Source: a virus
IMG/VR virus record: IMGVR_UViG_3300025873_000024
Location: 1 to 31,433 of that record
Direction: 5' to 3' (one strand)
Length of the DNA: 31,433 bases
Shown here: in pieces, positions 10,597 through 22,730 of the stretch
How the letters are laid out: each line of letters opens with the position of its first letter
How positions within the stretch are numbered: the first letter of the stretch is position 1
The notes under the pieces: generated by a model
What the model was told of the DNA's origin: nothing
What the model saw: the letters and a program-made list of their open reading frames with translations, nothing else
The model's database searches: none
Position numbers and translations under genes: made by a program

Positions 10597-10618
10597 GCTC
10601 ACCCCTTTCCTTTCCTAC

Positions 10619-10660: not shown

Positions 10661-10672
10661 TTGGGGCTATTT

Positions 10673-10834: not shown

Positions 10835-10863
10835 TTCTTCCCCTCTTTCCGTTCTTTGTCGTT

Positions 10864-11154: not shown

Positions 11155-11163
11155 ACTTTCCTC

Positions 11164-11742
11164 CTATTGTGCCCTATGGCTTGAATCTTTAAACTTAATA
11201 AACCCGCCTGATTCTCTTATTCTATCCATGATCGAAGGCCCTAAAACATTGCCCATATTTTCAATTGAATCATTGGTAATTATTATGGTTGGTTTCCGAT
11301 CATCATAACGCCTGTCGATAATGTGATCTAATACTCTATTCTCAAACTCAGTATCTCCACGAACTTCAAAAGCATCCATTACTAAAAGATGAGGTTTGAT
11401 AAATCTTTCAATCTCTTCTTGCTCTGTGGTGGTTGAGTTTCGGTTGTTCCCGTTTCTAATTGAGAGGAAGATATCAAAGGCTTTCGTGTAGAGTGCAGGC
11501 TTCTTGAGATTCTGGCAACAGTGACCGATTGCACATGCAGAGCTTTGAGTTTTCCCACTTCCACGAGTTCCTAATACGATGCAGATTCCGCCCGCAGTTA
11601 CTGACTCTTTTACTTTGTTGTGACTCTCTAACCATTGAGGGCTATTATTATCGGTTACTCTAAAAGATTTATGCCTCTTAGGAATACAAGCACGATCATA
11701 TAAAACACTTGTGTTTATTCCTGTGAAATCTGGTTCACTCAT
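11164..11742 (-). CDS. DnaC/IstB-like AAA+ ATPase, helicase loader
   Basis: 192 residues. Walker A GTRGSGKT lies at about residues 58-65 (GICIVLGTRGSGKTQSSACA) and a Walker-B-type strand at HLLVMDAFEV, where the usual DE is DA. A sensor-1-like strand is TIIITNDS, and an RI/Arg-finger region is IMDRIRESG near residue 175. Shorter than DnaC, but the order and spacing fit helicase loaders. Together with the replisome organizer just upstream (4-base overlap) it would load a host replicative helicase at the phage origin; no phage helicase is seen in the window. Confidence 0.85.
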   Translation of the reverse strand: MSEPDFTGINTSVLYDRACIPKRHKSFRVTDNNSPQWLESHNKVKESVTAGGICIVLGTRGSGKTQSSACAIGHCCQNLKKPALYTKAFDIFLSIRNGNNRNSTTTEQEEIERFIKPHLLVMDAFEVRGDTEFENRVLDHIIDRRYDDRKPTIIITNDSIENMGNVLGPSIMDRIRESGGFIKFKDSSHRAQ

Positions 11743-12449: not shown

Positions 12450-12652
12450 TAGTCATCCTTTCTTTCCCATGCTGACATTCTCACTAGGCAATCATGTGCC
12501 TTGTACTTTAAAAGAACCCCCGTTTGAGGCTCTTCGGTCGAGCAAATATCGTCTAGAGTCTCTATTGCCATAGCTGTCAGCCTTATATACATTTTAAGCT
12601 TGTTTTTGAGGATCTCATTTTGGACGCTTAAGTCCACTGGTGTAGTACTCAT
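12449..12652 (-). CDS. Hypothetical 67-residue protein in the replication operon
   Basis: ATG at 12652 overlaps the upstream RHH gene's stop (ATGA) and its TAA overlaps the initiator's ATG (TAATG). Helical protein: LSVQNEILKNKLKMYIRLTA, then MAIETLDDICSTEEP, and a C-terminal segment with HDCLVRMSAWERKDD. No recognised family. Its exact placement between an RHH regulator and the replication initiator suggests a role in replication. Confidence 0.7.
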   Translation of the reverse strand: MSTTPVDLSVQNEILKNKLKMYIRLTAMAIETLDDICSTEEPQTGVLLKYKAHDCLVRMSAWERKDD

Positions 12653-12774
12653 TTCTGCACATCCTTAATCAATAACATTCTAATGTAAGCCGTAGGAGTC
12701 AAGCCGAGTTCTTTGGCCTTCTCTTTGACGCTGATTAATAAATCTGGTTTTAAACTCAATAAAAACTTAGCCAT
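12649..12774 (-). CDS. Ribbon-helix-helix (Arc/CopG-type) regulator, 41 residues
   Basis: MAKFLLSLKPDLLISVKEKA, then KELGLTPTAYIRMLLIKDVQ: a beta strand (residues 3-8) followed by two helices with the LGLTPTAYIRMLL turn typical of RHH domains. ATG at 12774 with AGAGG 7 bases upstream. It is the first gene behind a promoter carrying the perfect palindrome AAAAGTATATACTTTT, so it is likely autoregulated. The gene heads the initiator/helicase-loader operon and so could set the timing of replication. Confidence 0.75.
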   Translation of the reverse strand: MAKFLLSLKPDLLISVKEKAKELGLTPTAYIRMLLIKDVQK

Positions 12775-12791
12775 ATTATACCTCTTTCGTA

Positions 12792-12833
12792 TTATTAATA
12801 TATATGATTGTGATATCAAAAGTATATACTTTT
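12792..12833 (-). promoter_or_regulatory. Promoter and 16-bp palindromic operator for the replication operon
   Basis: On the minus strand: -35 TTGATA, 17-base spacer, -10 AATAAT. Immediately upstream and touching the -35 is AAAAGTATATACTTTT (12818-12833), a perfect palindrome suited to a dimer or tetramer of RHH protein. The first gene behind it encodes such a protein. Confidence 0.6.
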
Positions 12834-12845
12834 ATGTTTTGGCAA

Positions 12846-12876
12846 ATAAAAAGGGGCCTACCGCCAAGTAAGGCCC
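12846..12876 (-). terminator. Rho-independent terminator, minus strand
   Basis: Minus strand: GGGCCT stem, 11-base loop, AGGCCC, then a T-rich run (CCTTTTTATTT). Lies 6 bases past the stop of the HTH gene at 12883 and ends that operon before the promoter of the replication operon. Confidence 0.7.
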
Positions 12877-12882
12877 ACTTAT

Positions 12883-13092
12883 TTAAAGCTCCTGATTAAT
12901 TGAATATTCCATATACCACTTATCACCCCTTGAAACCTTCTCACGCCTTACCACATACCCAAGGCGTCCGATGTCGTATATTCTTGCCGCTAATCTCATG
13001 CAACTAAATAGGCTAAGTGCCTTTAGTGCTGTTATTGTGTTTCCTGATTGCAGGTAGTTTAGTATCTTCCTTGTCTGTGGTTCTCTACTCAT
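12883..13092 (-). CDS. Winged-HTH DNA-binding protein (HTH_39-like)
   Basis: 69 residues: RKILNYLQSGNTITALKALS, then LFSCMRLAARIYDIGRLGYV, then the wing KVSRGDKWYMEYSI. This matches the small phage winged-helix family in which the second helix reads rLaarIyDLrrlGy. Probably DNA-binding, possibly controlling early transcription. ATG at 13092 follows the 77-residue gene by 11 bases and the gene is closed by a terminator. Confidence 0.8.
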   Translation of the reverse strand: MSREPQTRKILNYLQSGNTITALKALSLFSCMRLAARIYDIGRLGYVVRREKVSRGDKWYMEYSINQEL

Positions 13093-13103
13093 TTGTTTTG
13101 CTC

Positions 13104-13337
13104 CTAAATTGATGTTTCAATGATTTTAACCCTGTAATCTAGTGTAGCGTAGACTTTACACCCGCCTATTTCTGTTCCTATTGATATGTGGTGTTTATTG
13201 GACCATAGTTTTTCATACACCTCATAAACAACCTCTTTATCAGTGTTTACTATAGTTTCCCCTATTGACAACTCTCTTGGGAATGGGAATCTTACGCTCT
13301 CGAAGATATCATCTTCGTACAAGACAATTTCATACAT
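13104..13337 (-). CDS. Hypothetical 77-residue protein behind a structured leader
   Basis: Start taken at the ATG at 13337 with GGAG 6 bases upstream; the frame continues four codons to 13349. Begins MYEIVLYEDDIFESVRFPFP and is beta-rich, with an end reading VYATLDYRVKIIETSI. Its ribosome-binding site lies just behind a long RNA structure ending in a T-run (13352-13497), so its expression may be controlled by attenuation or RNA binding. No family recognised. Confidence 0.7.
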   Translation of the reverse strand: MYEIVLYEDDIFESVRFPFPRELSIGETIVNTDKEVVYEVYEKLWSNKHHISIGTEIGGCKVYATLDYRVKIIETSI

Positions 13338-13351
13338 ATTTTTCTCCATAA

Positions 13352-13497
13352 AACAAAAAACCGCTCATTCAAGTAGGGGCTGAGAGTGCCTTGTGCGGAC
13401 ATTATAACGCACAACCTACCTGAATAAACGGTTTGTATATTCAATTTTAAATAATGTCTTTTTCAAAAGCGCAGGGCTCTCACCTCCTGCACTCTCT
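13352..13497 (-). ncRNA. Structured leader RNA with possible pseudoknot and attenuator
   Basis: On the minus strand a stem pairs CCTAC(C)TGAAT/AAACGG elements (13415-13434) with GTAGG(A)ATTCA/AAACCG elements (13358-13377) and is followed by GGTTTTTTGTTTT, like an intrinsic terminator. Inside it is TTGTGCG/CGCACAA (13391-13397 with 13408-13414). GAGAGTGC at 13382-13389 is fully complementary to GCACTCTC at 13489-13496, which lies outside the stem, so the two pairings cross. A fourth hairpin GCAGG/CCTGC is near 13471-13490. It sits between the stop at 13541 and the gene at 13337. No known RNA family is recognised. Confidence 0.6.
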
Positions 13498-13540
13498 TAA
13501 TATAGTCTAATTACTGTTGTATTGCAAGGATTAAAGAACT

Positions 13541-13753
13541 TTATATTAAGCAATACGCCAACACAACCCCACTTAGCGAACCAAGCACTAAGTACCATGC
13601 CAATACAAAAGGCACTACGCCCTCTTTAAGCAGTAGACAGTCTCTTACAAATGGAATTTCATATATTGCATCTTGTGCCAGCGTGTAGAGAAAGCATATA
13701 AAACACATTACCCCATGCCCCACCATCATTATACTTAAGTCAGTGTCACTCAT
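13541..13753 (-). CDS. Small membrane protein, two to three helices
   Basis: 70 residues starting MSDTDLSIMMVGHGVMCFIC. Hydrophobic helices about residues 7-26 and 46-69 (VVPFVLAWYLVLGSLSGVVL), with a polar centre containing VRDCLLLKEG. No signal peptide cleavage site or known motif. It follows the 146-residue gene by 1 base. Could be a holin-like or superinfection protein, but nothing beyond membrane location can be supported. Confidence 0.65.
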   Translation of the reverse strand: MSDTDLSIMMVGHGVMCFICFLYTLAQDAIYEIPFVRDCLLLKEGVVPFVLAWYLVLGSLSGVVLAYCLI

Positions 13754-13754
13754 T

Positions 13755-14195
13755 TTAGCCCTTATTTTCTTTAATTAAAATTTCCCACCTGTTATTTTTT
13801 ACAGCTCTTTTTTCTTCTTCAGTTGGATTTGATCCCACAAACTCATCAATGCGCATTTTAGCAGCAACAGAAAGAGCACTGTGGGAATATTTGCTATTTT
13901 CATAAATTCGCATTAAATCAAAAAGAGTTATTCCTTTTATTACATCTATGCGCATGTTTACTATGTCCATGTGCGAGAAGCCCTCAAACTCAACATTTAC
14001 TTTTCCGTAATATTCGCATGTTTCCTTTTTGAACTTAATAAGGTCCTTAATTGTTGGATATATAGACCACTCGTGCACTTCTCCTTTGTGTGTTTTAATA
14101 TTAGCTCTGCATATAAAAGATATTTCACATTTACTTTTTTTGCTAAGCTTAATCTCTTTTTCTACATGTTCAAATATGCTCGTTGTTTCATTCAT
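13755..14195 (-). CDS. Hypothetical 146-residue protein
   Basis: Begins MNETTSIFEHVEKEIKLSKK; soluble, with a beta-rich first half (CEISFICRANIKTHKGEVHE, then EWSIYPTIKDLIKF) and a helical second half (SALSVAAKMRIDEFV ... EEEKRAVKNNRWEIL). Notably AT-richer than its neighbours. The motif CEISF also occurs at the start of the next protein upstream (14199-14384), perhaps by chance. No family recognised. Confidence 0.65.
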   Translation of the reverse strand: MNETTSIFEHVEKEIKLSKKSKCEISFICRANIKTHKGEVHEWSIYPTIKDLIKFKKETCEYYGKVNVEFEGFSHMDIVNMRIDVIKGITLFDLMRIYENSKYSHSALSVAAKMRIDEFVGSNPTEEEKRAVKNNRWEILIKENKG

Positions 14196-14198
14196 CTC

Positions 14199-14384
14199 TT
14201 ACACCTCCTTAATTGATTGTATTGCCTCTTGAATGGCTTGTTTGTTTGTGCAGTCTAACCCTAGTCTATGAATACACCTGTCTTTGAAGTGTTGGCCTTC
14301 TGAGCCCTCCTCTGTGAAGTGCTTACAGTTCTTTGGAGCTCCGGAGCATGAGAAACTTATCTCACAATTACTTTCTTGATTCAT
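14199..14384 (-). CDS. Hypothetical 61-residue Cys-rich protein
   Basis: ATG at 14384 with AGGA upstream. Five Cys after the N-terminus: NCEISFSCSG, KNCKHFTEEG, DRCIHRLGLDC, then a helix (NKQAIQEAIQSI). This CxxxxxC ... C ... C ... C layout resembles small iron-sulfur or zinc phage proteins. It is one of a run of Cys-rich small proteins encoded from 14.2 to 15.4 kb. Confidence 0.65.
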   Translation of the reverse strand: MNQESNCEISFSCSGAPKNCKHFTEEGSEGQHFKDRCIHRLGLDCTNKQAIQEAIQSIKEV

Positions 14385-14395
14385 TCTTGATTATC

Positions 14396-14572
14396 CTAGT
14401 CTAATGCGTTAATGATTCGGCTGTAGAACTCACAGCACTTCTTGATTGTCTCTGTTTGGTAGTATCCCTCTTCGTATCTTGGGTACTGCTCTTTAATGTA
14501 TTCTATGGCGTGGTCATAATCACATGTTTCAATGAATGCCGCTAGTGCTATATCAATTTGTTCCTTGCTCAT
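14396..14572 (-). CDS. Hypothetical 58-residue protein
   Basis: ATG at 14572 with AAAGAGGAAGA upstream; the frame is open further but that would run deeper into the preceding gene. MSKEQIDIALAAFIETCDYD, then HAIEYIKEQYPRYEEGYYQT, then a helix with KKCCEFYSRI. Helical and acidic, with a Cys pair near the end. No recognised family. Confidence 0.65.
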   Translation of the reverse strand: MSKEQIDIALAAFIETCDYDHAIEYIKEQYPRYEEGYYQTETIKKCCEFYSRIINALD

Positions 14573-14726
14573 TCTTCCTCTTTCCTTTGTATCTATCAAT
14601 TCTGTTCATTTTCTCAAAGCAGTATTGAAACATTGCTGTATCACACTGCTCAAAACATTCCATATTGTCTAGCCTGCCTTTGGTGCATCCTTCTTTCCAG
14701 TAGATGCAAGCTCTTTTATCATACAT
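14553..14726 (-). CDS. 57-residue Cys-rich protein overlapping both neighbours
   Basis: ATG at 14726. MYDKRACIYWKEGCTKGRLD, then NMECFEQCDTAMFQYCFEKM, then a basic tail. Six Cys in a spacing similar to the neighbouring Cys-rich proteins. It overlaps the end of the 14669-14899 gene by 58 bases and the start of the 14396-14572 gene by 20 bases, each in a different frame. The Cys pattern supports it as real; the overlap lowers confidence. Confidence 0.5.
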   Translation of the reverse strand: MYDKRACIYWKEGCTKGRLDNMECFEQCDTAMFQYCFEKMNRIDRYKGKRKNEQGTN

Positions 14727-14899
14727 CTATACTTTGCCCCCTTGTCCTCTTTTACTTGCGTCACACACGTTATTGAGGCACTGCTCAAAAGTTCGCCTAA
14801 ACACCGCTTTTCTCTTTTTCCTCCGTAGTAACAACCGTCTGTTGCTCTTTGGCTGTTACATTTCCCGCCTTCGTAGTTTGTACATTGTGTGTAAGTCAT
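14669..14899 (-). CDS. Hypothetical 76-residue Cys-rich protein
   Basis: ATG at 14899 with AGAGG 5 bases upstream. Cys positions in CTNYEGGKCNSQRATDGCYY, KRCLGELL, then TCVTQVKEDKGAKYRC. CxxYxxGxC...CxY...C recalls small phage zinc or disulfide proteins of unknown function. The last ~20 residues are basic and lie in the part overlapped by the next gene. Confidence 0.65.
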   Translation of the reverse strand: MTYTQCTNYEGGKCNSQRATDGCYYGGKREKRCLGELLSSASITCVTQVKEDKGAKYRCMIKELASTGKKDAPKAG

Positions 14900-15043
14900 T
14901 TAATCCTCTTCTCTAATTTCCCAGTTTTCAGGCGTATCCATTTCACACCCGCAACTAAACAGAAGCGGACACTCTGAGCACTGCACTTCTGTACACCACC
15001 CTTTTACTACCTTCATTGCTTCTACTGCTGTTTTTCTATCCAT
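14900..15043 (-). CDS. Hypothetical 47-residue Cys-rich protein
   Basis: ATG at 15043 overlaps the upstream RHH stop (TAATG). MDRKTAVEAMKVVKGWCTEV, then QCSECPLLFSCGCEMDTPEN, then WEIREED. Five Cys: C...CxxC....CxC, again a metal-binding type pattern, with an acidic C-terminus. The gene ends one base before the next ATG. Confidence 0.65.
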   Translation of the reverse strand: MDRKTAVEAMKVVKGWCTEVQCSECPLLFSCGCEMDTPENWEIREED

Positions 15044-15192
15044 TATTTATTATCCCTTTCTAGCTTCTCTTTTATTGCTTCGTTGATCCAGTCTGTTTTG
15101 TTGTTGGTCAACTTTTCGATTTTAGTGTTCGTAGCTTCCTCAACTTGGATCTCAACACGAACGGGGTTGATCCACTTCTTTTTGTTTGCCAT
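15043..15192 (-). CDS. Second small ribbon-helix-helix-like protein
   Basis: 49 residues, ATG at 15192 in a TAATG overlap with the upstream gene. MANKKKWINPVRVEIQVEEA, then TNTKIEKLTNNKTDWINEAI, then KEKLERDNK. A basic N-terminal strand (NPVRVEIQVE), a helix, the TNNKTDWINEAI turn-helix and a charged end match RHH domains such as CopG. Probably DNA-binding; it may control promoter C just upstream of its operon. Confidence 0.6.
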   Translation of the reverse strand: MANKKKWINPVRVEIQVEEATNTKIEKLTNNKTDWINEAIKEKLERDNK

Positions 15193-15380
15193 TATACTTC
15201 ATCGCTCCTGTCGGCTGGACACTTGTCAAGAAGAACTATAATAGTATCTTCTTTGAGGTCCTCATGACTACAAACATCAGCAACCATTCCAGAGGCCCAC
15301 CACTTCGCCCCGCCAGAACTGCACTGAGTTCTACTTCTATAAACACACTTCTCACACATCCTCTTGTCTGCTTTTCTCAT
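15192..15380 (-). CDS. Hypothetical 62-residue Cys-rich protein, first gene of its operon
   Basis: ATG at 15380 with GGAGG 7 bases upstream. MRKADKRMCEKCVYRSRTQC, then SSGGAKWWASGMVADVCSHE, then LLDKCPADRSDEV. Five Cys in a CxxC...C...C...C layout. It opens the operon of small Cys-rich proteins driven by promoter C. Confidence 0.7.
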   Translation of the reverse strand: MRKADKRMCEKCVYRSRTQCSSGGAKWWASGMVADVCSHEDLKEDTIIVLLDKCPADRSDEV

Positions 15381-15411
15381 AATCAACCTCCATTGTTTTG
15401 TTGATAATTAT

Positions 15412-15453
15412 AATATACCGTAAAGTTACGGGAATATCACGTTTTATTTTACT
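15412..15453 (-). promoter_or_regulatory. Minus-strand promoter C (same family as A and B)
   Basis: On the minus strand: AGTAAAATAAAAC, -35 GTGATA (15440-15435), 17-base spacer, -10 TATATT (15417-15412). The spacer holds CCGTAAAGTTACGG (15418-15431), a perfect inverted repeat with a 2-base centre. The AT-rich upstream box and -10 are the same as in promoters A and B, but the operator sequence differs. Confidence 0.6.
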
Positions 15454-15507
15454 ATTTCTAAAAATAAATTTAAATCTGGCTTAAACAGTAGGGTCTGGAT
15501 ATAGGAA

Positions 15508-15531
15508 AAGCCCCTCATTTCTGAGAGGCTT
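15508..15531 (-). terminator. Hairpin with GAAA loop and T-run, minus strand
   Basis: Minus strand: AAGCCTCTCA, GAAA, TGAGGGGCTT, then TTCC. Ten pairs with one A:C mismatch. Fits a terminator for transcripts coming from the 15670-17381 genes and probably ends the structured RNA at 15541-15620. Confidence 0.6.
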
Positions 15532-15540
15532 CAAAGGCAA

Positions 15541-15620
15541 GAGATTAAGCCATGTTGCAGGCGAGCTCTCTTGGGCTCAAGCAGATCATTTTCAGAGCGG
15601 GGGTTGATTAGGCCCCCTTA
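15541..15620 (-). ncRNA. Possible structured non-coding RNA upstream of the terminator
   Basis: This stretch has no gene longer than 13 codons but several hairpins. GGGGG/CCCCC (15599-15603 with 15613-15617, loop TTGATTAGG) and GAGC/GCTC (15563-15566 with 15575-15578) lie just before the terminator at 15508. GC is higher than in the AT-rich bases on either side. Could be an independent small RNA or a stabilising 3' region of the 15670 gene. No family recognised. Confidence 0.4.
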
Positions 15621-15669
15621 CGAACAGAGATTGAAACGGAAAGGTTAATTATCTCATGTATTGAATATA

Positions 15670-16077
15670 CTAAAAGCAATCTACTATTGTCAACATAAAT
15701 TCATCACACCCGTCTAAAAGGCTCATAAATTCACGAAAGGCACGTTTAGAACTCAACACAGCTACATCGCCGTTAAGCTTTCCAAACTCTTCACCGAGGA
15801 TTATACATCCTTGAGTATTAGAGTCAATATTTCCCCAATGTATGAGCACCTTATCACGCCCCTGAATGCCTGAAACCTCAAAAGTAATGCCGTACTTTGG
15901 GGAAGTTACCCTTTTGCACAAATACACCCCCGCAGGAATGCAGGATATATTCTTGGCGTTGTCTCGGTGATATGGTTCTACTGTCACACAAATAGGAGTG
16001 TTAAGAAGCTGTAACGCTCCGAAGGTTCCTTGATCTGGATCTGCTGTAATTCTGGTTAGTCTTGCTGTTGGTCTCAT
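15670..16077 (-). CDS. DUF5675-family protein
   Basis: 135 residues. TFGALQLLNTPICVTVEPYH at the N-terminus, then NISCIPAGVYLCKRV, FEVSGIQGRDKVLIHWGNID, and SNTQGCIILGEEFG. The SCIPaGxY ... GRdxvLIHwGN ... T.GCI..G pattern is the DUF5675 signature. The IHwGN/GCI pair recalls the His/Cys pair of L,D-transpeptidase-like cell-wall enzymes, but that link is a hypothesis. It lies in a three-gene unit with a DUF1353 protein and a membrane protein, the only place in the window where lysis or cell-wall functions could be. Start overlaps the upstream stop by 4 bases. Confidence 0.75.
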   Translation of the reverse strand: MRPTARLTRITADPDQGTFGALQLLNTPICVTVEPYHRDNAKNISCIPAGVYLCKRVTSPKYGITFEVSGIQGRDKVLIHWGNIDSNTQGCIILGEEFGKLNGDVAVLSSKRAFREFMSLLDGCDEFMLTIVDCF

Positions 16078-16649
16078 CTTGCCTCTCTTATTAATTGTGC
16101 TCTCTCATAGTTCTCGTACCCTCTACCGCTCTTGTATAAGTTCCATCCAATAGGAGAAGATACACCAGCCCACAAAAGGCGACACTGAGCCCGTGAAAGC
16201 CCAAAGTATCTACATGTAGCATAGAACATATCATTGTTGAATCTGAAGCCGTCCTTATCACTTCCGAAGAGTTTAAAGGAGCAACCTGCATCATGGATTA
16301 GCGAAGGCCATAAAATACGGGGGTCGTCGTTGTCTGGCATTCTTACGAATAAAGTTTTTAATGATCTCTGAGCCCTGAACAACCTTGGGATACTTGCGTA
16401 ATCTGTAATCATGCCAACATTTAAGCTGAACTCAAACACCTCTTTGTCCGTTGTGACTACTGCCTTTAGTGGGCTTGTTAGCATTCGCCAGCTTTGAGAA
16501 TTACTAAACGGAATTTCTGGATACTCGGGAATCTCTGTGCCGAGGCTTCCCTCAAGAGAAATTCTTTGATTTATAAACCTGTCTTTTTCTAACATCTCGG
16601 GCCGTATGTATCCATGCCTCACAATGCTTTTTATGTTGACTTTTCCCAT
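16074..16649 (-). CDS. DUF1353-family protein
   Basis: 191 residues. The DUF1353 elements are present in order: a beta segment VFEFSLNVGMITDYASIPRL (residues ~72-91), then WPSLIHDAGCSF (about 112-123), then NDMFYATCRYFGLSRAQCRL and LLWAGVSSPIGWNLYKSG. DUF1353 proteins occur widely in tailed phages, often near lysis or tail genes, with unknown biochemical role. The conserved Asp-x-x-Ser-Ile-Pro and His-Asp residues hint at a metal or catalytic site. Confidence 0.75.
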   Translation of the reverse strand: MGKVNIKSIVRHGYIRPEMLEKDRFINQRISLEGSLGTEIPEYPEIPFSNSQSWRMLTSPLKAVVTTDKEVFEFSLNVGMITDYASIPRLFRAQRSLKTLFVRMPDNDDPRILWPSLIHDAGCSFKLFGSDKDGFRFNNDMFYATCRYFGLSRAQCRLLWAGVSSPIGWNLYKSGRGYENYERAQLIREAR

Positions 16650-16652
16650 TGG

Positions 16653-17381
16653 TTACGCCTTGAGTAAAGGTTTTGTCTTTCTTTCGTCGGCTCTTCTCTT
16701 AATGGTCAACTCTTTTGAGTGGTAGTTTCTATATAGTGCATGAAGGGCGTCTTTGACTTTGTTATAGCTTATTACTTCTGATACACACCTATCAATAATC
16801 TCATGGTTCCATGTGTCTATTTGCATTCTTGATATAATTGAAGAAGTGCAAACCATTGCTCTATCTTCTAATGTCTCTATATATCTCTTTGCGTTGTCGT
16901 TTCCTTTTTCATCGAGAAAGTCTCCTATGTTTTCATCAATGGCATACTCTTTGTAATATGCAACCGAAGACCGCGCCACCTTGTTAAAGGCTTTCATGGT
17001 TTCATCATAAAAGGTTCTCTTAAAGCTTGAAATACTTTCATGCTTTTCGGTGTCTGACTTTCTAGATATGAGTATTTGATTTTCATTTTCGTTTTTGTTT
17101 ACACGCTTGTATGAGCTTCTCAACTCCTCAGAATACTTAAAGAATAGGCTTGTGACTTCATGGGAAAGTATCTCAAACTGTTCCTCTGCCATCGCTATTT
17201 TTGATTCACTAAAGCCTATTGCATCGACAACATACTCCCTGTTTTCTATTTCGCTTCTTGCTTCTCTCGTCTTTATATACTTAATTGTCCATACAATTGC
17301 ATACGAGAAAGCTGCCACCACTGAAACTATAGACCATCCACTGTCTATAAAGCTCTTTACAATACCTATAAGCTCGTCCAT
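16653..17381 (-). CDS. Membrane-anchored helical protein, first gene of its unit
   Basis: 242 residues from the ATG at 17381 (GAGG 7 bases upstream; a GTG at 17393 is less likely). One membrane helix, about residues 14-33 (GWSIVSVVAAFSYAIVWTI), then long charged, largely helical cytoplasmic sequence with several coiled-coil-like stretches, ending in a very basic tail (KRRADERKTKPLLKA). Membrane anchor plus coiled coil fits a spanin- or holin-associated role, but no family is recognised. It is transcribed away from the cassette array, from the intergenic region at 17.4 kb. Confidence 0.65.
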   Translation of the reverse strand: MDELIGIVKSFIDSGWSIVSVVAAFSYAIVWTIKYIKTREARSEIENREYVVDAIGFSESKIAMAEEQFEILSHEVTSLFFKYSEELRSSYKRVNKNENENQILISRKSDTEKHESISSFKRTFYDETMKAFNKVARSSVAYYKEYAIDENIGDFLDEKGNDNAKRYIETLEDRAMVCTSSIISRMQIDTWNHEIIDRCVSEVISYNKVKDALHALYRNYHSKELTIKRRADERKTKPLLKA

Positions 17382-17441
17382 ATCTTGCCTCACTTGTTAT
17401 ACTCTAAAATACAACTTTATTTAAGTATTTTACTTTTTTTG

Positions 17442-17470
17442 TTGCACTTTGTGTATTTATTATTTATTAT
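17442..17470 (+). promoter_or_regulatory. Plus-strand promoter facing the cassette array
   Basis: TTGCAC, 17-base spacer, TATTAT in an AT-rich tract, just past the divergent gene that starts at 17381. It is the only good plus-strand promoter I can see before the array and would make a ~500-base leader. Strength and timing are unknown. Confidence 0.45.
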
Positions 17471-17477
17471 ATGGTCA

Positions 17478-17996
17478 TGCAATAGTTATGTAGAAATGGC
17501 TTTTGTAGAAACTTACCAGACTCCAAGATGCTATAAGGCCCGTATTTTAGGGAGGCCCTTACTGCTTGCTATACTTGGAGTATGCAAGACTAGTAAATTT
17601 CTACCCTCTCTAAAACACGAGCCTTTTTCTATTTGTTCTTTGACAAAGAGTATAGTATCTTGCCAATGAGAATAAAATCAACAGCCTCATATACTCGAAT
17701 AATTTAATTTTAATTATTGCATACTGGGATTTCCGAAGTGGGTGTACCCAGAGAATACGACTGCGAATATAAGGGCGGTCTATATGGTTCTAAAAATCCA
17801 ATGCTATGACGCTATAGTTATACGAAAGTATACAGGATAACAACACCTCTAACCTTGAAGGGGAAGGGGTGTTAACCCCTACTAATCAACATAAGTTTCC
17901 GAAAGTATTAGGAAAGAAAAGAAGAACTAAGAGAAGATTACACGAAAAACGATTATGAAAAAATGATAGAGAGAATTGCAACTTTAGAATTGGAGC
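17478..17996 (+). other. About 500 bases without a convincing gene: hairpin-rich array leader
   Basis: No open frame here has a ribosome-binding site and normal composition. It holds CTTGC(T)ATAC/GTATGCAAG at 17565-17588 and CTGGG/CCCAG near 17725-17753. TATACGAAAGTATA (17819-17832) and a GGATAAC...GTTAACC element (17835-17877) follow. Several AGTAT/ATACT motifs resemble half of the RHH operator at 12818. Near 17912-18010 there is an open frame without a start codon whose product would be Glu/Lys-rich, possibly a gene remnant. It could be an array leader, a regulatory region, or what remains of an attachment site. Confidence 0.5.
17835..17877 (+). other. Short or degenerate attC-like element at the array's left edge
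   Basis: GGATAAC at the left, GTTAACC at the right, and AACACC/GGTGTT arms (17842-17847 with 17868-17873) between them. It has the outer boxes but not the bulged inner arms and GAGG-ACGA loop of the full sites. It could be the left boundary of the array, a decayed attC, or an unrelated hairpin. Confidence 0.35.
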
Positions 17997-18002
17997 GTGA
18001 AG

Positions 18003-18212
18003 ATGGGTGAAATGTTTTGTTTTGACCAGCAATGGGATCAAGAAAATGAAAAATTGATTATGGGATTCTGCTACCAAACAGAGAAGACGAACTATGTGAA
18101 TATTTTCGTTGAGTTTGATGAATGGCAGAAAAAACAAGCAGATGAAATAATGGGAAAGTTTGAAGCTCTCCAAAAAGAGCAAGAAGAAATGATAAAAAGG
18201 TGGATACCATAA
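18003..18212 (+). CDS. Cassette gene: hypothetical 69-residue protein
   Basis: ATG at 18003 with GGAG 7 bases upstream (a GTG at 17997 is too close to it). MGEMFCFDQQWDQENEKLIM, then GFCYQTEKTNYVNIFVEFDE, then a Lys/Glu/Gln helix ending EEMIKRWIP. Hydrophilic, probably a beta sheet followed by a coiled coil. First gene of the array and followed, after 62 bases, by the first full attC site. Not a recognised family. Codons are richer in GAA/AAA than in the head genes. Confidence 0.7.
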   Translation: MGEMFCFDQQWDQENEKLIMGFCYQTEKTNYVNIFVEFDEWQKKQADEIMGKFEALQKEQEEMIKRWIP

Positions 18213-18274
18213 CTATTTCCTACTAACCACAACAGAGAATAACAGAAGAGACAGCACAGTTGAGTTTTATGTAG

Positions 18275-18339
18275 GAATAACAACTGCGTGTTGTGCAAGT
18301 GAGGCACGAACGCAGACATCAACAACGCACTGGTTATGG
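18275..18339 (+). other. attC site 1
   Basis: GAATAAC at the left and GTTATGG at the right (65 bases). Arms CTGCGTGTTGTG and ATCAACAACGCAC pair imperfectly, leaving unpaired bases on one side as attC sites do when folded. The loop part has GAGGCACGA, shared with most other sites of the array. Confidence 0.85.
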
Positions 18340-18358
18340 TGCGAGATAGGAAAAAAAG

Positions 18359-18781
18359 ATGAAAATGGAAGTAATCAAAAAAGAAGAAGTTGAAATCAAA
18401 TTCTTACAAGTATCTGCTGGTGTACGATACTGGGAGAATGGAACAGTTGACGGAGTAGAGGACACTGAAGGCGAATTAATGCCCTGCATTGAAGGCGAAA
18501 ACTGGTCTCCTTTAATTGAGCTTGAAACAGGCAAGATTGTGAACTGGAAACAGGGAACTAAGGCAAGCACATATTACAAAGTTTGTGATTGCTGTGTGAT
18601 TAGTTTTCTTGATGAAGAAAAGGTTTCTCACAAAATTATTGAAGGTTATGTTCCCGATATTCTTTCGCCTAAAGAAGAAGGTTACGGCGATTATGTAATT
18701 ATGGATATTGATGAAAATGGAATGATTCAAAATTGGAAGCCTTCACTTGATTGGCTTGAAGATTATCAGGATTTTTCTTAG
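18359..18781 (+). CDS. Cassette gene: 140-residue protein of a widespread unknown family
   Basis: ATG at 18359. The segment FLQVSAGVRYWENGTVDGVE, then MPCIEGENWSPLIELETGKI, then VNWKQGTKASTYYKVCD, then EEGYGDYVIMDIDENGMIQN with a final WL-rich helix. I recall a similar GVRYW-D-VDG...GYGDYIIM family of short hypothetical proteins across bacteria, without an assigned function. It is soluble and acidic. The TAG stop touches the start of attC site 2. Occurrence as a single-gene cassette fits mobile spread of this family. Confidence 0.75.
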   Translation: MKMEVIKKEEVEIKFLQVSAGVRYWENGTVDGVEDTEGELMPCIEGENWSPLIELETGKIVNWKQGTKASTYYKVCDCCVISFLDEEKVSHKIIEGYVPDILSPKEEGYGDYVIMDIDENGMIQNWKPSLDWLEDYQDFS

Positions 18782-18845
18782 GATAACGCTTTTGTCGTGT
18801 GCTGAGGAGGCACGACGAAAGACATCACGAACAAACTGGTTATGA
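18781..18845 (+). other. attC site 2
   Basis: GGATAAC ... GTTATGA, 65 bases. Left arm GCTTTTGTCGTGTGC, right arm GACATCACGAACAAAC, loop with GAGGCACGA. Outer boxes ATAAC/GTTAT are complementary. Confidence 0.85.
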
Positions 18846-18865
18846 ACTAAACTTAGGAAAATACG

Positions 18866-19246
18866 ATGAAGTACGAAATCAAATACAAAGAGCTTACAGA
18901 ATATCTTGAAACCTTGAAATACAGAGACTTTTGGGATGAGAGTTCAGAAAACTATATGCAAAAAGCATACACAACTAAAGAACTTGAGTTCTCGAAAAAC
19001 AAAGACAGATTCGAAGGTGAACAGTTTATTGATTACGGTATGCCATACCTAGTTGATGTATTGGGAAATGACCTTTCTTTAGTTTGGAGCACTAAGAAAA
19101 AGCACAAATTGAAAACTTGTAGTGGTGTACGATCACTGAGTTTGAAATTTGACAGAACTTTAATTAAAGATTGTCGAACAGTTTTAGGCTCTTGTGTTAA
19201 TGGGTATTGGGCTATTCCAAAAAGATTTATTATCGAATCAATATAA
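18866..19246 (+). CDS. Cassette gene: hypothetical 126-residue protein
   Basis: ATG at 18866 with AGGA upstream. Helical first part (MKYEIKYKELTEYLETLKYR), a central YGMPYLVDVLGNDLSLVW, then a basic Ser/Thr-rich end (SGVRSLSLKFDRTLIKDC). No recognised motif. Its TAA stop lies inside the TATAAC box of attC site 3, so gene and site form one compact cassette. The same attC, in an exact 59-bp copy, serves another gene at 7.06-7.29 kb. Confidence 0.7.
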   Translation: MKYEIKYKELTEYLETLKYRDFWDESSENYMQKAYTTKELEFSKNKDRFEGEQFIDYGMPYLVDVLGNDLSLVWSTKKKHKLKTCSGVRSLSLKFDRTLIKDCRTVLGSCVNGYWAIPKRFIIESI

Positions 19247-19304
19247 CGTGTCGCTTCGTTTGGCGGGAGTTGAGCGAGCGAACTAATGAAAGCGTAGGTT
19301 ATGA
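19242..19304 (+). other. attC site 3 (identical core copy at 7007-7065)
   Basis: TATAACG ... GTTATGA. Arms GTGTCGCTTCGTTTGG and AACTAATGAAAGCGTAGG. Bases 19242-19300 equal the reverse complement of 7007-7065 without mismatch. The loop GCGGGAGTTGAGCGAGCGAA differs from the GAGG-ACGA loops of the other sites, marking it as a distinct attC subtype carried at both loci. Confidence 0.88.
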
Positions 19305-19390
19305 ATGACTGTGATAAAACGGTCAAAATGAAGATGGAACTTGCTGACTTAAACAATGAACTTTGGATAATCGAAGAACGGAAAAAATAA
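19301..19390 (+). CDS. Cassette gene: 29-residue peptide starting in the attC core
   Basis: Its ATG is the ATG of GTTATGA in attC site 3; it encodes MNDCDKTVKMKMELADLNNE plus a 9-residue charged end, and stops in TAATG with the next gene. It may be a leader peptide that couples ribosomes into the 115-residue gene. Short, so only moderate confidence. Confidence 0.45.
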   Translation: MNDCDKTVKMKMELADLNNELWIIEERKK

Positions 19391-19737
19391 TGTGCAAATA
19401 CTGTGATTTACGAGGAAAAACATGGAACGGATCTGATCCGAAGTGTGGGTTCCCTTTAGGAGACACTTTTACCCCCGAAAACTGGAACTGTGCTACACTC
19501 AATCTCCTTCGAGGACTTTCCCATAAAAATGGAGTTAAAACTTATGGTGAAGACAATGGGTCAATCTCTATTCTAGCACTCCCAACAAGTTGGAATTTTG
19601 ACGAAAGAGGCTACTTAGTTATGAACTGGTACAAAGATCGAGGTTGTACCGACAAGGCTAAGATAATTAATGAAGATGAAGAGTTTGAACTCACTGAAGA
19701 GCTCGCAAACGCGATTATTGAACATTATACAAAGTAG
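19390..19737 (+). CDS. Cassette gene: 115-residue CxxC protein of an unknown family
   Basis: ATG at 19390 overlapping the preceding stop (TAATG). MCKYCDLRGKTWNGSDPKCG, then FPLGDTFTPENWNCATLNLL, then GSISILALPTSWNF and GYLVMNWYKDRGCTDKAKII with an acidic helix at the end. CxxC near the N-terminus plus two more Cys could hold a metal. I have a memory of similar CxYC-L-GSDP-C-FP proteins in many genomes, with no known function. Good compositional support for a real protein. Confidence 0.75.
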   Translation: MCKYCDLRGKTWNGSDPKCGFPLGDTFTPENWNCATLNLLRGLSHKNGVKTYGEDNGSISILALPTSWNFDERGYLVMNWYKDRGCTDKAKIINEDEEFELTEELANAIIEHYTK

Positions 19738-19742
19738 GAGTT

Positions 19743-19967
19743 ATGCGTAAATTAATCAGTAACACAAAAGAGGCAAAAGAGTGGATGAAGAAAAACCCTG
19801 AAAGAATACTTTACTCTTATAAAGAAAAAATTAATCTAGTCTGTATGGGGCCAGCAAGGGTATAGGCACCACTAAGTATCGAAGGGTTTAAAGTGCTAAC
19901 AGGTGTTAAAACCGATGGTACTCCTATTTGGAAGCCTTTAACAGAATTTGAAATAGAAATCAACTGA
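19743..19967 (+). pseudogene. Gene interrupted by an in-frame TAG (74 codons plus stop)
   Basis: ATG at 19743 with AGGAG upstream. The first 40 codons (MRKLISNTKEAKEWMKKNPE ... CMGPARV) end at a TAG (19863-19865), but the frame stays open for 33 more codons of normal-looking protein (APLSIEGFKVLTGVKTDG ... TEFEIEIN) to a TGA. Both halves look like one small protein. Since another cassette gene here ends at a TAG directly before its attC, TAG works as stop in this genome. A nonsense mutation is the simplest reading; partial readthrough or sequencing error are alternatives. Confidence 0.6.
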
Positions 19968-19991
19968 GTGTTTTGCTACGAGGAGGAAGAT

Positions 19992-20150
19992 GTGAGGAGA
20001 TTATTAATGCTGATTTTGTCTGCTGTATTTGCATCTATTGTTTTATTTGTAATAAACATTGTGATGTGGTTACTCCACTGGCCATGTTTTGGACAAACAA
20101 CATGGATCATGATATTTGTATATGATTATGCAGTGCCGAAATATAAGTAA
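19992..20150 (+). CDS. Cassette gene: small membrane protein
   Basis: 52 residues from a GTG at 19992 with GGAGG 5 bases upstream; an ATG at 20007 is the alternative. MRRLLMLILSAVFASIVLFV, then INIVMWLLHWPCFGQTTWIM, then IFVYDYAVPKYK: one long or two short membrane helices with a positive N-terminus. Stop codon TAA is inside the AAGTAAC box of attC site 4. It probably shares one cassette with the two or three short genes before it, since no attC lies between them. Confidence 0.6.
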   Translation: MRRLLMLILSAVFASIVLFVINIVMWLLHWPCFGQTTWIMIFVYDYAVPKYK

Positions 20151-20209
20151 CACCGAAATGGTGTGCGAATGAGGAACGAATGAAGTCATCACCAATTGAA
20201 CGGTTATGA
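20145..20209 (+). other. attC site 4
   Basis: AAGTAAC ... GTTATGA, 65 bases. Arms CCGAAATGGTGTGC and GTCATCACCAATTGAACGG, loop with GAGGAACGA. Its GTTATG supplies the most upstream possible ATG of the cytosine methyltransferase gene. Confidence 0.85.
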
Positions 20210-21087
20210 CTCAAACAGAAAGAGCGAAAATGAAAGTATTGAGCTTATTTGATGGTATCAGTTGTGGCAAAGTAGCACTTGAAAAAAATGGCATCCAAGT
20301 TGAAAAGTATTACTCCGCTGAAATTGATAAAACAGCAATGGGAATCAGCGAACAAAACCACGATGGTATTGTGAGACTTGGAAGTGTTGAAGATTGGGAG
20401 AACTGGGATATAGATTTCAGTGAGATAGATTTAGTTCTTGCAGGAAGCCCCTGCCAAGGTTTTAGCTCAAGCGGTAAAGGGTTAAATTTTGAAGACCCAC
20501 GAAGCAAATTGTTTTTTACATTTGTAGACATTCTCGAACACATTAAAGTAGTTAATAGTGATGTAAAATTTCTTCTTGAAAATGTGAAGATGAAAAAAGA
20601 GTGGACTGAAATAATTGATGAAAAACTAGGTGTTGTATATGAGGAAATTAACAGCAAATACTTCTCCGCTCAAAACAGAGTTCGTTTTTACTGGTGTAAT
20701 TGGGAGATACCAAAATACGAAGACCTTGGTATAATGCTTGAAGATATTGTTGAAGATGATTACATACACTCAGCGGCGAAAAGAACAAGACCAATAGTTG
20801 ACGAGGGAAGACGAAAAAGCCTTTGCTTGGAAGTTCACGGGATTGGTAAAAGTATGTGCTTGGTTACTGTTAATTTGAACAACCTACTTAGCCCTTTGCC
20901 AAGAGGAAGATACAAGGACTGTGGTGAAAATGATTACCCTTACAGAGTTATGACACCAAGAGAAATGGAAAAACTACAAACAATGCCTGAAAACTATGTG
21001 GGAGACATTTCAAGCAACAAGGCGGCTAAAGTTCTTGGTAATGGTTGGAATGTTGATACTATCGCACACATATTAACAGGAATGTAA
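20206..21087 (+). CDS. Cassette gene: C5-cytosine DNA methyltransferase
   Basis: 293 residues from the ATG in the attC core; a second ATG at 20230 (MKVLSLFDG) is equally possible. Ordered motifs: I VLSLFDGISCGK (residues 11-22), IV GSPCQGFS with catalytic Cys83, VI ENV (125-127), VIII QNRVR (156-160). A target-recognition region follows at about 175-245, then IX RVMTPREMEKLQTMPENY (247-264) and X GNGWNVDTIAHIL (278-290). Complete and presumably active. It transfers a methyl group from S-adenosylmethionine to cytosine; without a partner nuclease here it most likely shields phage DNA from restriction. Specificity cannot be read. Confidence 0.93.
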   Translation: MTQTERAKMKVLSLFDGISCGKVALEKNGIQVEKYYSAEIDKTAMGISEQNHDGIVRLGSVEDWENWDIDFSEIDLVLAGSPCQGFSSSGKGLNFEDPRSKLFFTFVDILEHIKVVNSDVKFLLENVKMKKEWTEIIDEKLGVVYEEINSKYFSAQNRVRFYWCNWEIPKYEDLGIMLEDIVEDDYIHSAAKRTRPIVDEGRRKSLCLEVHGIGKSMCLVTVNLNNLLSPLPRGRYKDCGENDYPYRVMTPREMEKLQTMPENYVGDISSNKAAKVLGNGWNVDTIAHILTGM

Positions 21088-21094
21088 ATCAAGC

Positions 21095-21159
21095 TTATAA
21101 CAATTTTGTGGTTTGCAAGCGAGGAACGAGTGCAGACACAACCAACAAACAGGTTATGA
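21095..21159 (+). other. attC site 5
   Basis: TTATAAC ... GTTATGA, 65 bases. Arms TTTTGTGGTTTGC and CACAACCAACAAACAGG, loop with GAGGAACGA. Confidence 0.85.
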
Positions 21160-21180
21160 CCTGTGTGGAAAGAGAGAAGC

Positions 21181-21462
21181 ATGATTAAATGGTACAATTG
21201 GAACTTTCCTGCAAAATTACTCCCTGAGTGGGTAAAGGAGGAACGTAGCAGAAATTCAAAGGCAATCATCAAGCTAAGCAACCAAGTAAAACTTCTTGAA
21301 AGTGCAAACTGCCCACGGTGTTCAATGCATGAGGCACCAACAACGGCGGAATATTGCCCGGTGTGTGATGCAAAACAAGAGTATGCTCCAAATCCATATT
21401 ATATACATATTTGCACTAACTGCAAAGAGAAGTACACTCAGTCAGATTTAATTAGGAAGTAA
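21181..21462 (+). CDS. Cassette gene: 93-residue zinc-ribbon protein
   Basis: ATG at 21181 with GAGAGA upstream; the frame is open back to a GTG at 21163. MIKWYNWNFPAKLLPEWVKE, then a helix with IIKLSNQVKLLES, then NCPRCSMHEAPTT, YCPVCDAKQEY and ICTNCKEKYTQSDLIR. Three CxxC knuckles, probably one or two zinc ribbons, behind a helical coiled-coil segment. Function unknown; nucleic-acid or protein binding is likely. Its stop touches the short attC-like element that follows. Confidence 0.75.
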   Translation: MIKWYNWNFPAKLLPEWVKEERSRNSKAIIKLSNQVKLLESANCPRCSMHEAPTTAEYCPVCDAKQEYAPNPYYIHICTNCKEKYTQSDLIRK

Positions 21463-21488
21463 TAACCACTTGAATGTAGTGGTTATGG
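21460..21488 (+). other. attC site 6, unusually short (29 bases)
   Basis: TAATAACCACT, 7-base loop, AGTGGTTATGG: a perfect 9-bp stem ATAACCACT/AGTGGTTAT including both core boxes. It lacks the inner arms, bulged bases and variable loop of the other sites. It separates two genes just as a normal site would. It may be a truncated attC or a minimal working one. Confidence 0.55.
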
Positions 21489-21499
21489 AAAGAGGGAGT

Positions 21500-21691
21500 A
21501 TGAAAAATATAATTAGAATTTTAAAAGGCAAACTGCACTTCAACTACTGCCATTGGCAAAAGTGGAATCATTTAGGTTTTAAAAAACTTTGGAGTGGAAA
21601 GTTGATTTACTTCGGTTTTTCAAAGTTTAGTGTTCAATTGGATATTAGAAAAAACTGGGTTGATGACTTGGTAACAGGTAAAGTGAAATAA
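21500..21691 (+). CDS. Cassette gene: hypothetical 63-residue protein
   Basis: ATG at 21500 with GAGGGAG upstream; an in-frame ATG lies in the core of attC site 6 at 21485. MKNIIRILKGKLHFNYCHWQ, then KWNHLGFKKLWSGKLIYFGF, then FSVQLDIRKNWVDDLVTGKV. Basic and aromatic, with a probable all-beta fold. TAA stop is inside AAATAAC of attC site 7. No recognised family. Confidence 0.65.
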   Translation: MKNIIRILKGKLHFNYCHWQKWNHLGFKKLWSGKLIYFGFSKFSVQLDIRKNWVDDLVTGKVK

Positions 21692-21747
21692 CACCTGTGT
21701 GTGGTGCGGTGAGGTACGAACAGTCATCCACAACACATAGGTTATGA
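21686..21747 (+). other. attC site 7
   Basis: AAATAAC ... GTTATGA, 62 bases. Arms CCTGTGTGTGGTG and ATCCACAACACATAGG pair well with one-sided extra bases; loop with GAGGTACGA. Confidence 0.88.
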
Positions 21748-21769
21748 CAAACGGTAGAAAGGAACGAGA

Positions 21770-22402
21770 ATGATTGATTTTAGAAATATGTGCAATATGG
21801 AATTGATGAAAGAGTTTGAGGATAATCATTTTGAACTTGCGATTGTTGATCCGCCTTACGGAATAGATTTGGCAAATATGAATATGGGGGCTGGGAAATC
21901 AGCAAAAGCATCAAAAATTGAAAATAGAAAGTGGAAAGCCAAAGACTGGGATAAAAACACACCGAGTGCAGAATACTTTGAAGAACTTATGAGAGTTTCA
22001 AAACATCAAATTATTTGGGGAGGAAACTATTTCGAATTGCCACCTTGCTACGGTTATGTAATTTGGGATAAGCAAATACCAGAGGGGCTATCTTTTGCAG
22101 ATTGTGAAATGGCGTGGACAAGTATAAAGCGTGCTGCAAAGATTTTTAGCTATAGTGCATACAAAGATAAAAAATTTAAGTTTCACCCAACCCAAAAACC
22201 AATAAGACTATACACTTGGCTCTTGGCAAACTATGCAAAAGAGGGAGACAAAATTTTAGATACGCATGTCGGCTCTGCAAGTTCTTTGATTGCTTGCCAC
22301 CAATTAGGCTATGATGTAACAGGCTGTGAATTGGATGAAGAGTATTACAAATTAGCACAACAACGAATTAAAGAGGAAACGGCTCAATTGAGCTTATTCT
22401 AA
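21770..22402 (+). CDS. Cassette gene: adenine-type (N6/N4, beta-class) DNA methyltransferase
   Basis: 210 residues. ATG at 21770 with AAAGGAAC upstream. Catalytic motif IV VDPPYG at residues 26-31 comes first, and motif I (ILDTHVGSASSLIACHQLGY, about residues 171-190) near the end after HPTQKP: the IV-then-I order of beta-class amino-methyltransferases. DTHVGSAS replaces the usual D-F-GSGT, a mild deviation. Short, with little room for a target-recognition domain. Methylates adenine or cytosine amino groups on DNA; second methyltransferase in the array, with no nuclease partner, so anti-restriction is the likely role. Confidence 0.9.
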   Translation: MIDFRNMCNMELMKEFEDNHFELAIVDPPYGIDLANMNMGAGKSAKASKIENRKWKAKDWDKNTPSAEYFEELMRVSKHQIIWGGNYFELPPCYGYVIWDKQIPEGLSFADCEMAWTSIKRAAKIFSYSAYKDKKFKFHPTQKPIRLYTWLLANYAKEGDKILDTHVGSASSLIACHQLGYDVTGCELDEEYYKLAQQRIKEETAQLSLF

Positions 22403-22451
22403 ATAACACCTCGGTGGATTGCCGAAGGTCAAACCAACCGAAAGGTTATGA
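22401..22451 (+). other. attC site 8 (51 bases)
   Basis: AAATAAC ... GTTATGA. Arms CCTCGGTGGATTG and CAAACCAACCGAAAGG, with a short loop GCCGAAGGT in place of the GAGG-ACGA loop. The ATG in GTTATG is in frame with the next gene. Confidence 0.8.
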
Positions 22452-22672
22452 TGATGAGTAGATACACGGAAGAACAACTTAAGTTACTAGAAGTGCAAGC
22501 GAAATCCGAAACATCAAAATGGTATTATGTGACTTTGTACCACTACCAAAATTTGAAAAAAGATGAAGTTGAATACTTCAAAGATTGGGTTGAGTGGGAT
22601 GGTGAGAAGTGGCTGTATGAAGAGTATGTAGATTGCTATGTGTGCTTCATCCACAAGAAAAAAGACATATAA
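22448..22672 (+). CDS. Cassette gene: hypothetical 74-residue protein
   Basis: Starts in the attC core with three possible ATGs in a row (22448, 22451, 22454). MMMSRYTEEQLKLLEVQAKS, then a beta-like YYVTLYHYQNLKKDEVEYFK, then DWVEWDGEKWLYEEYVDCYV. Strongly aromatic and acidic, ending in a basic tail. Stop codon TAA lies in the ATATAAC box of attC site 9. Not a recognised family. Confidence 0.65.
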   Translation: MMMSRYTEEQLKLLEVQAKSETSKWYYVTLYHYQNLKKDEVEYFKDWVEWDGEKWLYEEYVDCYVCFIHKKKDI

Positions 22673-22730
22673 CGCTCGCATGGTGTGCAGTGAGTGAAAC
22701 GAGCAGTCACCACTCATGCAGAAGTTATGA
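22667..22730 (+). other. attC site 9, last of the array
   Basis: ATATAAC ... GTTATGA, 64 bases. Arms GCTCGCATGGTGTGC and CAGTCACCACTCATGCAG. Beyond it there is no further site and the phage's own gene at 22802 follows, so it marks the right end of the cassette array. Confidence 0.85.

Follow-up and report, generated by a model that had tools for sequence, protein, structure and literature searches.

A probable integron-type gene-cassette array without an integrase in the genome of a tailed phage

The IMG/VR record IMGVR_UViG_3300025873_000024, a linear sequence of 31,433 bases analyzed here in full (hereafter, the window), encodes a terminase, a portal, a head morphogenesis protein and a major head protein, and accordingly represents a tailed phage rather than host contamination. 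Between 18.2 and 22.7 kb of the window, nine sites of the form TAAC...GTTATG[AG], all in a single orientation, separate units of one to a few genes. We consider it likely, with a probability of about 0.7, that this region represents an integrase-less gene-cassette array of the integron type, that is, a cluster of attC sites lacking integrase (CALIN), and that its units have been moved by an integron-integrase-type recombinase, likely that of the host.

Under this model, each site would be an attC-like hairpin, recognized in the form of a folded single strand of DNA. Exchange would take place mainly in the GTTA core that lies at the TAAC end of a site (between ATAA and C on the gene strand), often right after the upstream stop codon, so that the main moving unit would consist of one attC and the gene or genes after it. 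Such units would be inserted and removed by an integron-integrase-type tyrosine recombinase, which most likely comes from the host, and the same enzyme would invert the DNA between two sites that face each other. The methyltransferases and small proteins acquired in this manner may benefit the phage.

A family of hairpins between phage genes

Additional viral contigs were collected by the site pattern. Arrays of the same hairpin are present in G009, G292, G295, G297, G301, G302 and G307, and also in G306, a relative of the window's phage. These contigs come from diverse phages: G292, G295, G301, G302, G307 and G009 contain terminase and/or portal genes that belong to several unrelated families, and G297 contains a tape measure gene. 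A covariance model (R1) was derived from 36 sites of seven unrelated phage contigs, leaving out the window, its close relatives and G010. In the window, the hairpin family has ten members, namely, eight sites of the array and two sites on the opposite strand at 7.0-7.4 kb, which flank one small gene beside the SSB gene and were overlooked in the original prediction. R1 recovered nine of the ten, with E-values from 4e-13 to 1e-4, and matched nothing else in the window. Because a model trained without the window or its relatives finds eight full-length sites in the array, these sites exceed the chance expectation. In the sister phage G003, R1 recognized eight sites at E of 1e-4 or lower and one more weakly.

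All nine array sites of the original prediction were found where it had placed them and in the same orientation, from 18278-18339 through 22670-22730. Eight of these belong to the one hairpin family, and the 29-nt site at 21460-21488 is unmatched by R1. The predicted span started at a hairpin, at about 17839-17875, that is not a family member. The sites are as follows, with the originally predicted positions in brackets; for sites 1 to 8, the minus strand is the one with canonical attC polarity, and the genes are on plus.

18275..18339 (18278-18339), minus: attC-type site 1; R1 56.7 bits, E 6.2e-12
18781..18845 (18784-18845), minus: attC-type site 2; R1 55.0 bits, E 1.7e-11
19241..19304 (19244-19304), minus: attC-type site 3, GCTTCG subtype; R1 28.1 bits, E 9.7e-5
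20145..20209 (20148-20209), minus: attC-type site 4; R1 59.8 bits, E 1e-12
21095..21159 (21098-21159), minus: attC-type site 5; R1 55.3 bits, E 1.4e-11; DNA hairpin with paired R boxes, z -3
21460..21488, no strand assigned: short perfect hairpin of 29 nt with both R boxes; fold z -4.8, no R1 match
21686..21747 (21689-21747), minus: attC-type site 6; R1 61.3 bits, E 4.2e-13
22401..22451 (22404-22451), minus: attC-type site 7; R1 45.9 bits, E 3.3e-9
22667..22730 (22670-22730), minus: attC-type site 8, the last of the array; R1 41.9 bits, E 3.4e-8
7306..7371, plus: attC-type site to the left of the early module, in the opposite orientation, its gene on minus; R1 31.6 bits, E 1.3e-5
7007..7068, plus: attC-type site between the cassette gene 7061-7357 and SSB, ending in GGTTGTAACC; assigned by identity to site 3

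A GAGG-ACGA loop is present in five of the sites. Site 2 has a 92% identical copy in G010, a viral contig otherwise unrelated to the window, and 59 nt of the site at 7007-7068 are 100% identical to positions 19242-19300 of site 3. The 29-nt hairpin is probably a deletion relic of an attC, and the simple hairpin AACACC...GGTGTT at 17839-17875, upstream of the array and unmatched by the attC model, is probably a terminator or a site relic. Elsewhere in the family, G292 contains a near-perfect palindromic version of the site (14285-14341) that the model matches on both strands, and the site array of G306 (2800-5100) lies within the early module, at the place of the RecT-like and neighbouring genes of the window. 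An Rfam scan of the window gave nothing over threshold, blastn of a site against known phages and plasmids gave no matches, and no near-identical records of the window were found in the phage collection.

The stems of the 36 phage sites covary strongly. Among 527 cells, of which 93% are paired, there are 53 double changes as opposed to a single one-sided (G-U type) change, and the covariation score is 0.277, compared to 0.075 in shuffled alignments and approximately 0.05 or less in slid controls. Double changes with almost no G-U indicate pairing as DNA and not as RNA. This pattern bears on the proposal that the hairpins are RNA elements, such as terminators or processing or translational coupling hairpins, combined with ordinary phage mosaicism. 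The intergenic location of the sites is compatible with that proposal, as are the weak terminator activity thought to exist in attC (PMC9892861) and the finding that, in 30 of the 48 scorable sites, the upstream gene terminates with the TAA of TAAC. However, the DNA pairing pattern speaks against it, and exact gain and loss of units at ATAAC, along with the inversion described below, would be left unexplained, so that we consider RNA elements a highly improbable explanation. The overlap with the stop codon has another implication, namely, that an exchange at this point keeps the gene intact.

When folded as single-stranded DNA, as the original prediction had proposed, several window sites pair their R boxes, with modest z-scores, and others prefer alternative folds. 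In the phage sites, only 5 of the 7 R-box bases are paired, which is why a structural search demanding strict R boxes detected none of them.

The genes between the sites encode two DNA methyltransferases and various small proteins:

7061..7357, minus: cassette gene, 98 aa, function not assigned; kept with the preceding attC in both sister phages
18359..18781, plus: cassette gene, 140 aa, function not assigned
18866..19246, plus: cassette gene, 126 aa, function not assigned; its stop TAA is the TAA of the following site
19363..19737, plus: cassette gene, Cys-rich product; in unit 19241-19745
19968..20150, plus: cassette gene, 60 aa, resembling a small membrane protein
20206..21087, plus: cassette gene, C5-cytosine DNA methyltransferase (PF00145, E 2.3e-31; phrog_116)
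21163..21462, plus: cassette gene, 99 aa, with CxxC pairs
21470..21691, plus: cassette gene, 73 aa
21770..22402, plus: cassette gene, N6/N4 DNA methyltransferase (PF01555, E 1.4e-16)
22448..22672, plus: cassette gene, 74 aa; its stop TAA overlaps the following site

Gain, loss and probable inversion at ATAAC

Comparison of related phages reveals differences by whole cassette units. Across most of the sequence that they have in common, G296 and G307 show about 99% identity; an extra unit of 432 bp in G296, an attC with two small genes, is exactly absent from G307. At the G307 junction, the joined ends share only ATAAC, and the remaining site is complete and unmixed. Because the sequences of these two sites diverge immediately past TAAC and the product has one whole site, the crossover can be placed within the 5-nt ATAAC. 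An alternative placement of crossovers, inside the sites, was rejected, given that site halves do not travel with the neighbouring genes.

The second comparison involves G003, a sister phage of 37.2 kb that is 98.6-98.9% identical to the window along long structural stretches and carries about 6.5 kb of phage genome missing from the window. Site 8 adjoins the packaging-side backbone in both sisters and is preceded by a different gene in each. G003 also shares the site at 7306-7371 and the gene that follows it, but has another gene ahead of the site. A copy of the unit 19241-19745 with 98.8% identity is present in G003 at another location and on the opposite strand. Positions 18228..18281 (plus) correspond to the final 54 nt (20143-20090 in G003) of a methyltransferase gene that G003 has in full. 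Both the end of this gene and that of the early operon adjoin one site in the window and another in G003, with the joint at ATAAC. The left edges of these window/G003 exchanges all lie in ATAAC, which is GTTAT on the attC strand, so that exchange between G and TT of the R' box, as read from these genome comparisons, fits most of the junctions, with exceptions on the GTTATG side. The gain and loss of units that the original prediction anticipated in related phages thus holds for whole cassettes, but the edges are mostly at ATAAC and only some at the GTTATG side.

The same comparison suggests a larger rearrangement:

7369..18277, no strand assigned: block with the early genes on the minus strand, inverted in G003; both ends are junctions of a gene end with ATAAC

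This block, which extends between the early operon's end (7369) and the end of the methyltransferase gene (18277), is reversed in G003 relative to the tail and packaging genes. Its ends in the window face the oppositely oriented sites 7306-7371 and 18275-18339, and in G003 they face other sites. Exchange between oppositely oriented attC predicts an inverted product of the kind that distinguishes G003 from the window. As far as can be judged from one assembly of each phage, the 10-kb early module was probably inverted between two facing sites. Within the early module, both phages also contain a 46-nt repeat (87% identical; window 8958-9002 and 10618-10662), possibly a promoter or operator.

The sharing of genes extends beyond close relatives. 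One cassette gene is common to G003, G297 and G301, phages that are otherwise unrelated, with 88-89% protein identity. Another occurs as a cassette in G295, whereas in G302 it is part of an ordinary operon and has no site.

The hairpins could alternatively serve as patches of homology through which homologous recombination of the phage or the host would reorder genes and turn the module around, similarly to the linkers in mosaic phages, without any site-specific integrase. The window encodes a RecE-like exonuclease and, apparently, a RecT-like protein. Moreover, an identical site is found with both flanks different, and sites of the same phage are sometimes identical, with a gene-converted look: the site at 7007-7068 has the same flanks and a new interior in the two sisters, and in each phage matches another site of that phage. 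Nevertheless, the G296/G307 crossover falls in the 5-nt ATAAC and not in the longer stretches shared inside the site; ATAAC is also where the inversion has both its ends and where other junctions lie; and homologous recombination needs neither covarying stems nor a fixed polarity. We therefore regard homology patches as an unlikely explanation. The distant pairs in question, 7007-7068 and 19241-19304 in the window and 18306-18368 and 18859-18921 in G003, are identical or nearly so within a phage and unlike the equivalent in the sister; judging by these alignments, the sites of one genome look as if they had been gene-converted.

The identical 60-nt site with different flanks also resembles a moved hairpin, as would be expected of mobile elements of the MITE (miniature inverted-repeat transposable element) or REP (repetitive extragenic palindromic) type, inserted between phage genes through single-strand transposition by a Y1 transposase. 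However, the moving units are genes with one site, the sites recur regularly between single genes, with one and the same polarity, and no transposase was noticed, although no search aimed at transposases was made. Mobile hairpins accordingly appear to us an exceedingly improbable source of the array.

Likeness to bacterial attC, polarity and the recombinase

To obtain a yardstick for the integron reading, we ran the integron integrase model on 274 Gammaproteobacterial genomes, 106 of which were positive, and took the array side of 20 integrons. A second covariance model (R2) was derived from 24 IntI-linked attC of these arrays, with long loops trimmed by hand. On its source arrays, R2 found dozens of attC including the training sites, nearly all on the expected strand, and it also recovered the published CALIN of phage TJE1. 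In a covariance-model check of the kind proposed in the original prediction, R2 detected eight sister sites in six other phage contigs, with the best E-value of 1e-5, all of them also recognized by R1 and all on the antiparallel strand, but none significant in the window. Conversely, R1 matched one genuine integron attC on the bacterial side, on the correct strand (E 4e-4). The phage and bacterial structures, derived separately, share the spacing AAC, 6 nt, 2 bp, an extrahelical base, 5 or 6 bp, a second extrahelical base, and 2 bp. In place of the canonical core GTTRRRY / RYYYAAC, the phage sites keep GTTA and AAC, with the core GTTAT(nn) and the R'' box YCATAAC. A CALIN is defined by at least two attC within a few kilobases and the absence of an integron integrase; with eight sites recognized by R1 in 4.5 kb and no integrase, the window has the layout that the original prediction ascribed to it.

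The orientation of the sites is the reverse of the one originally predicted. According to both R1 and R2, the sites and the genes are on opposite strands; the GTTATG end is therefore R'', and the TAAC end is the recombination core R'. The prediction had the units bounded by the GTT of GTTATG, whereas most junctions are in ATAAC at the TAAC end. When the longest open reading frame between neighbouring sites is scored, the phages show 0 parallel and 55 antiparallel intervals, as opposed to 33 parallel and 7 antiparallel in the bacterial integrons; the phage arrays thus depart from the canonical arrangement, in which genes are parallel to attC and can be expressed from the cassette promoter Pc. 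In integrons, extrahelical bases select the strand that is recombined and hence the expression of captured genes (PMC2727003). Such bases are in the R''-L'' arm in 23 of the 24 bacterial references; in the phage sites, by simple alignment, the extra bases are mostly in the arm next to GTTATG (41 of 62). Among the published phage arrays, R2 reads PH101 (25919-27987) as antiparallel in 4 of 4 cases and MW202573 (2069-3738) in 5 of 5, and TJE1 as parallel in 3 of 3.

A complete integron comprises intI, attI and Pc, and intI is missing here: searches of the window for the integron integrase (TIGR02249) and for tyrosine recombinases (PF00589) were empty, as the original prediction had stated with regard to the integrase. 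The PF00589 search was also negative in G003, including the approximately 6.5 kb absent from the window, and the integron integrase model found nothing in the array phages to which it was applied. We tried and rejected the tyrosine integrases of G297 (8414-9592) and G301 (12911-14080), which lie among cassette sites: their matches are to phage integrase families (phrog_1), and their scores are far under the cut-off for an integron integrase, so that they are taken as ordinary lysogeny integrases, and both phages are apparently temperate. In G303, a 26-kb viral contig, a tyrosine recombinase gene (1064-1252) is located near a single site-like hairpin (L100, 411-466); it probably encodes an ordinary integrase, with the hairpin as its attachment site. 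Strict site patterns yielded 0 and 6 matches in 84,980 bacterial and archaeal species genomes, the 6 by chance in unrelated sequence; these patterns are narrow, and the result is still compatible with a host integron. The site model detected nothing in 395 genomes from each of two phyla, in a fast first pass that also missed a known weak site.

These results could be taken to indicate an integron-like system specific to phages, in which a recombinase other than IntI, from a helper phage or the host, acts on the hairpins. Such a system would be in line with the lack of IntI in the array-bearing phage records tested and of any tyrosine recombinase in G003, with the polarity reversed relative to bacterial cassettes, and with the failure of the strict, narrow site pattern to match in the species genomes. 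However, the geometry equals that of bacterial attC, R1 and R2 cross-match, published attC of other phages are substrates of IntI1 (PMC9892861), and scans with so narrow a pattern leave room for a host integron. On balance, a separate phage system seems to us quite unlikely, and host-supplied IntI acting in trans, as the original prediction had inferred, would be the simplest and likeliest agent of cassette movement, in keeping with the absence of a recombinase from the window and G003.

Several observations weigh against the integron interpretation. No host, integrase or attI was identified, the last without a separate search for it, R2 found nothing significant in the window itself, and the core is GTTAT instead of GTTRRRY. 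The extra bases are in the arm opposite to the expected one in 13 of the 62 sites and equal in number in both arms in 8. The phage comparisons all use metagenome assemblies. Furthermore, canonical attC are exchanged at one end, and some of the units changed at the GTTATG end. The site at 21689-21747, with its 60-nt identical copy in G003, has different DNA on both flanks, and the cassette gene shared by G003, G297 and G301 has different sites on both sides in the three phages. Two further cases fit poorly: the right edge of unit 19241-19745 is at a GTTATG without a site, and the interior of the site at 7007-7068 is replaced in G003 with the flanks unchanged. These exceptions could reflect gene conversion among the sites or a weak reaction of the other strand; top-strand attC recombination is known, although less efficient (PMC9892861).

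Relation to known systems and implications for phage evolution

The presence of CALINs in phages is not new. CALINs in virulent phages, with methyltransferase cassettes and with IntI1 activity on phage attC, were published in 2023 (Qi et al., PMC9892861). The arrays of TJE1, PH101, P12002L and ctTUS972 (MW202573) resemble that of the window in being integrase-less attC arrays in tailed phages with methyltransferase cassettes and small uncharacterized genes. R2 recovers the sites in TJE1, PH101 and MW202573, and weakly in P12002L; R1 gives no convincing match in these four, indicating that the window represents another attC sequence family. Sedentary chromosomal integrons of Gammaproteobacteria are similar to the phage sites in the R box, spacing, extrahelical bases, hairpin covariation and exchange at a GTTA core; in contrast, the window lacks intI, has the core GTTAT and belongs with arrays that are antiparallel (0:55) instead of mostly parallel (33:7). 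For the chromosomal integrons of Treponema, the published descriptions give a similar attC length, 63-68 nt in T. denticola (PMC3607928), and stop codons at the R'' box of Treponema cassettes (PMC4909258). The modular shuffling cassettes of T4-type phages (PeSLs) likewise place small intergenic hairpins where phage genes are exchanged, but they include an early promoter and are thought to act through homologous recombination.

Phage integron cassettes known so far amount to 17 scattered CALINs, without comparative evidence of movement in phages, and the 2023 study describes neither inter-phage cassette movement nor gene-antiparallel polarity (PMC9892861). New here are the attC family, the consistent antiparallel polarity, the exact gain and loss of cassettes, the sharing of cassette genes among unrelated phages, and the probable inversion of a module.

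Antiparallel polarity offers a simple, testable rule that separates phage from bacterial cassettes, and R2 shows the same in two published phage arrays. Given this consistent polarity, a phage cassette placed in a bacterial integron would not be expressed. If bacterial integrons hardly express phage cassettes and phages hardly use bacterial ones, the two pools would be separate. Tentatively, and with somewhat more doubt than confidence, we suggest that phages share a cassette pool of their own, distinct from the bacterial pool, in which cassettes have the reverse polarity, move between unrelated phages and flip genome modules. An integron-type reaction would then be one source of phage mosaicism.

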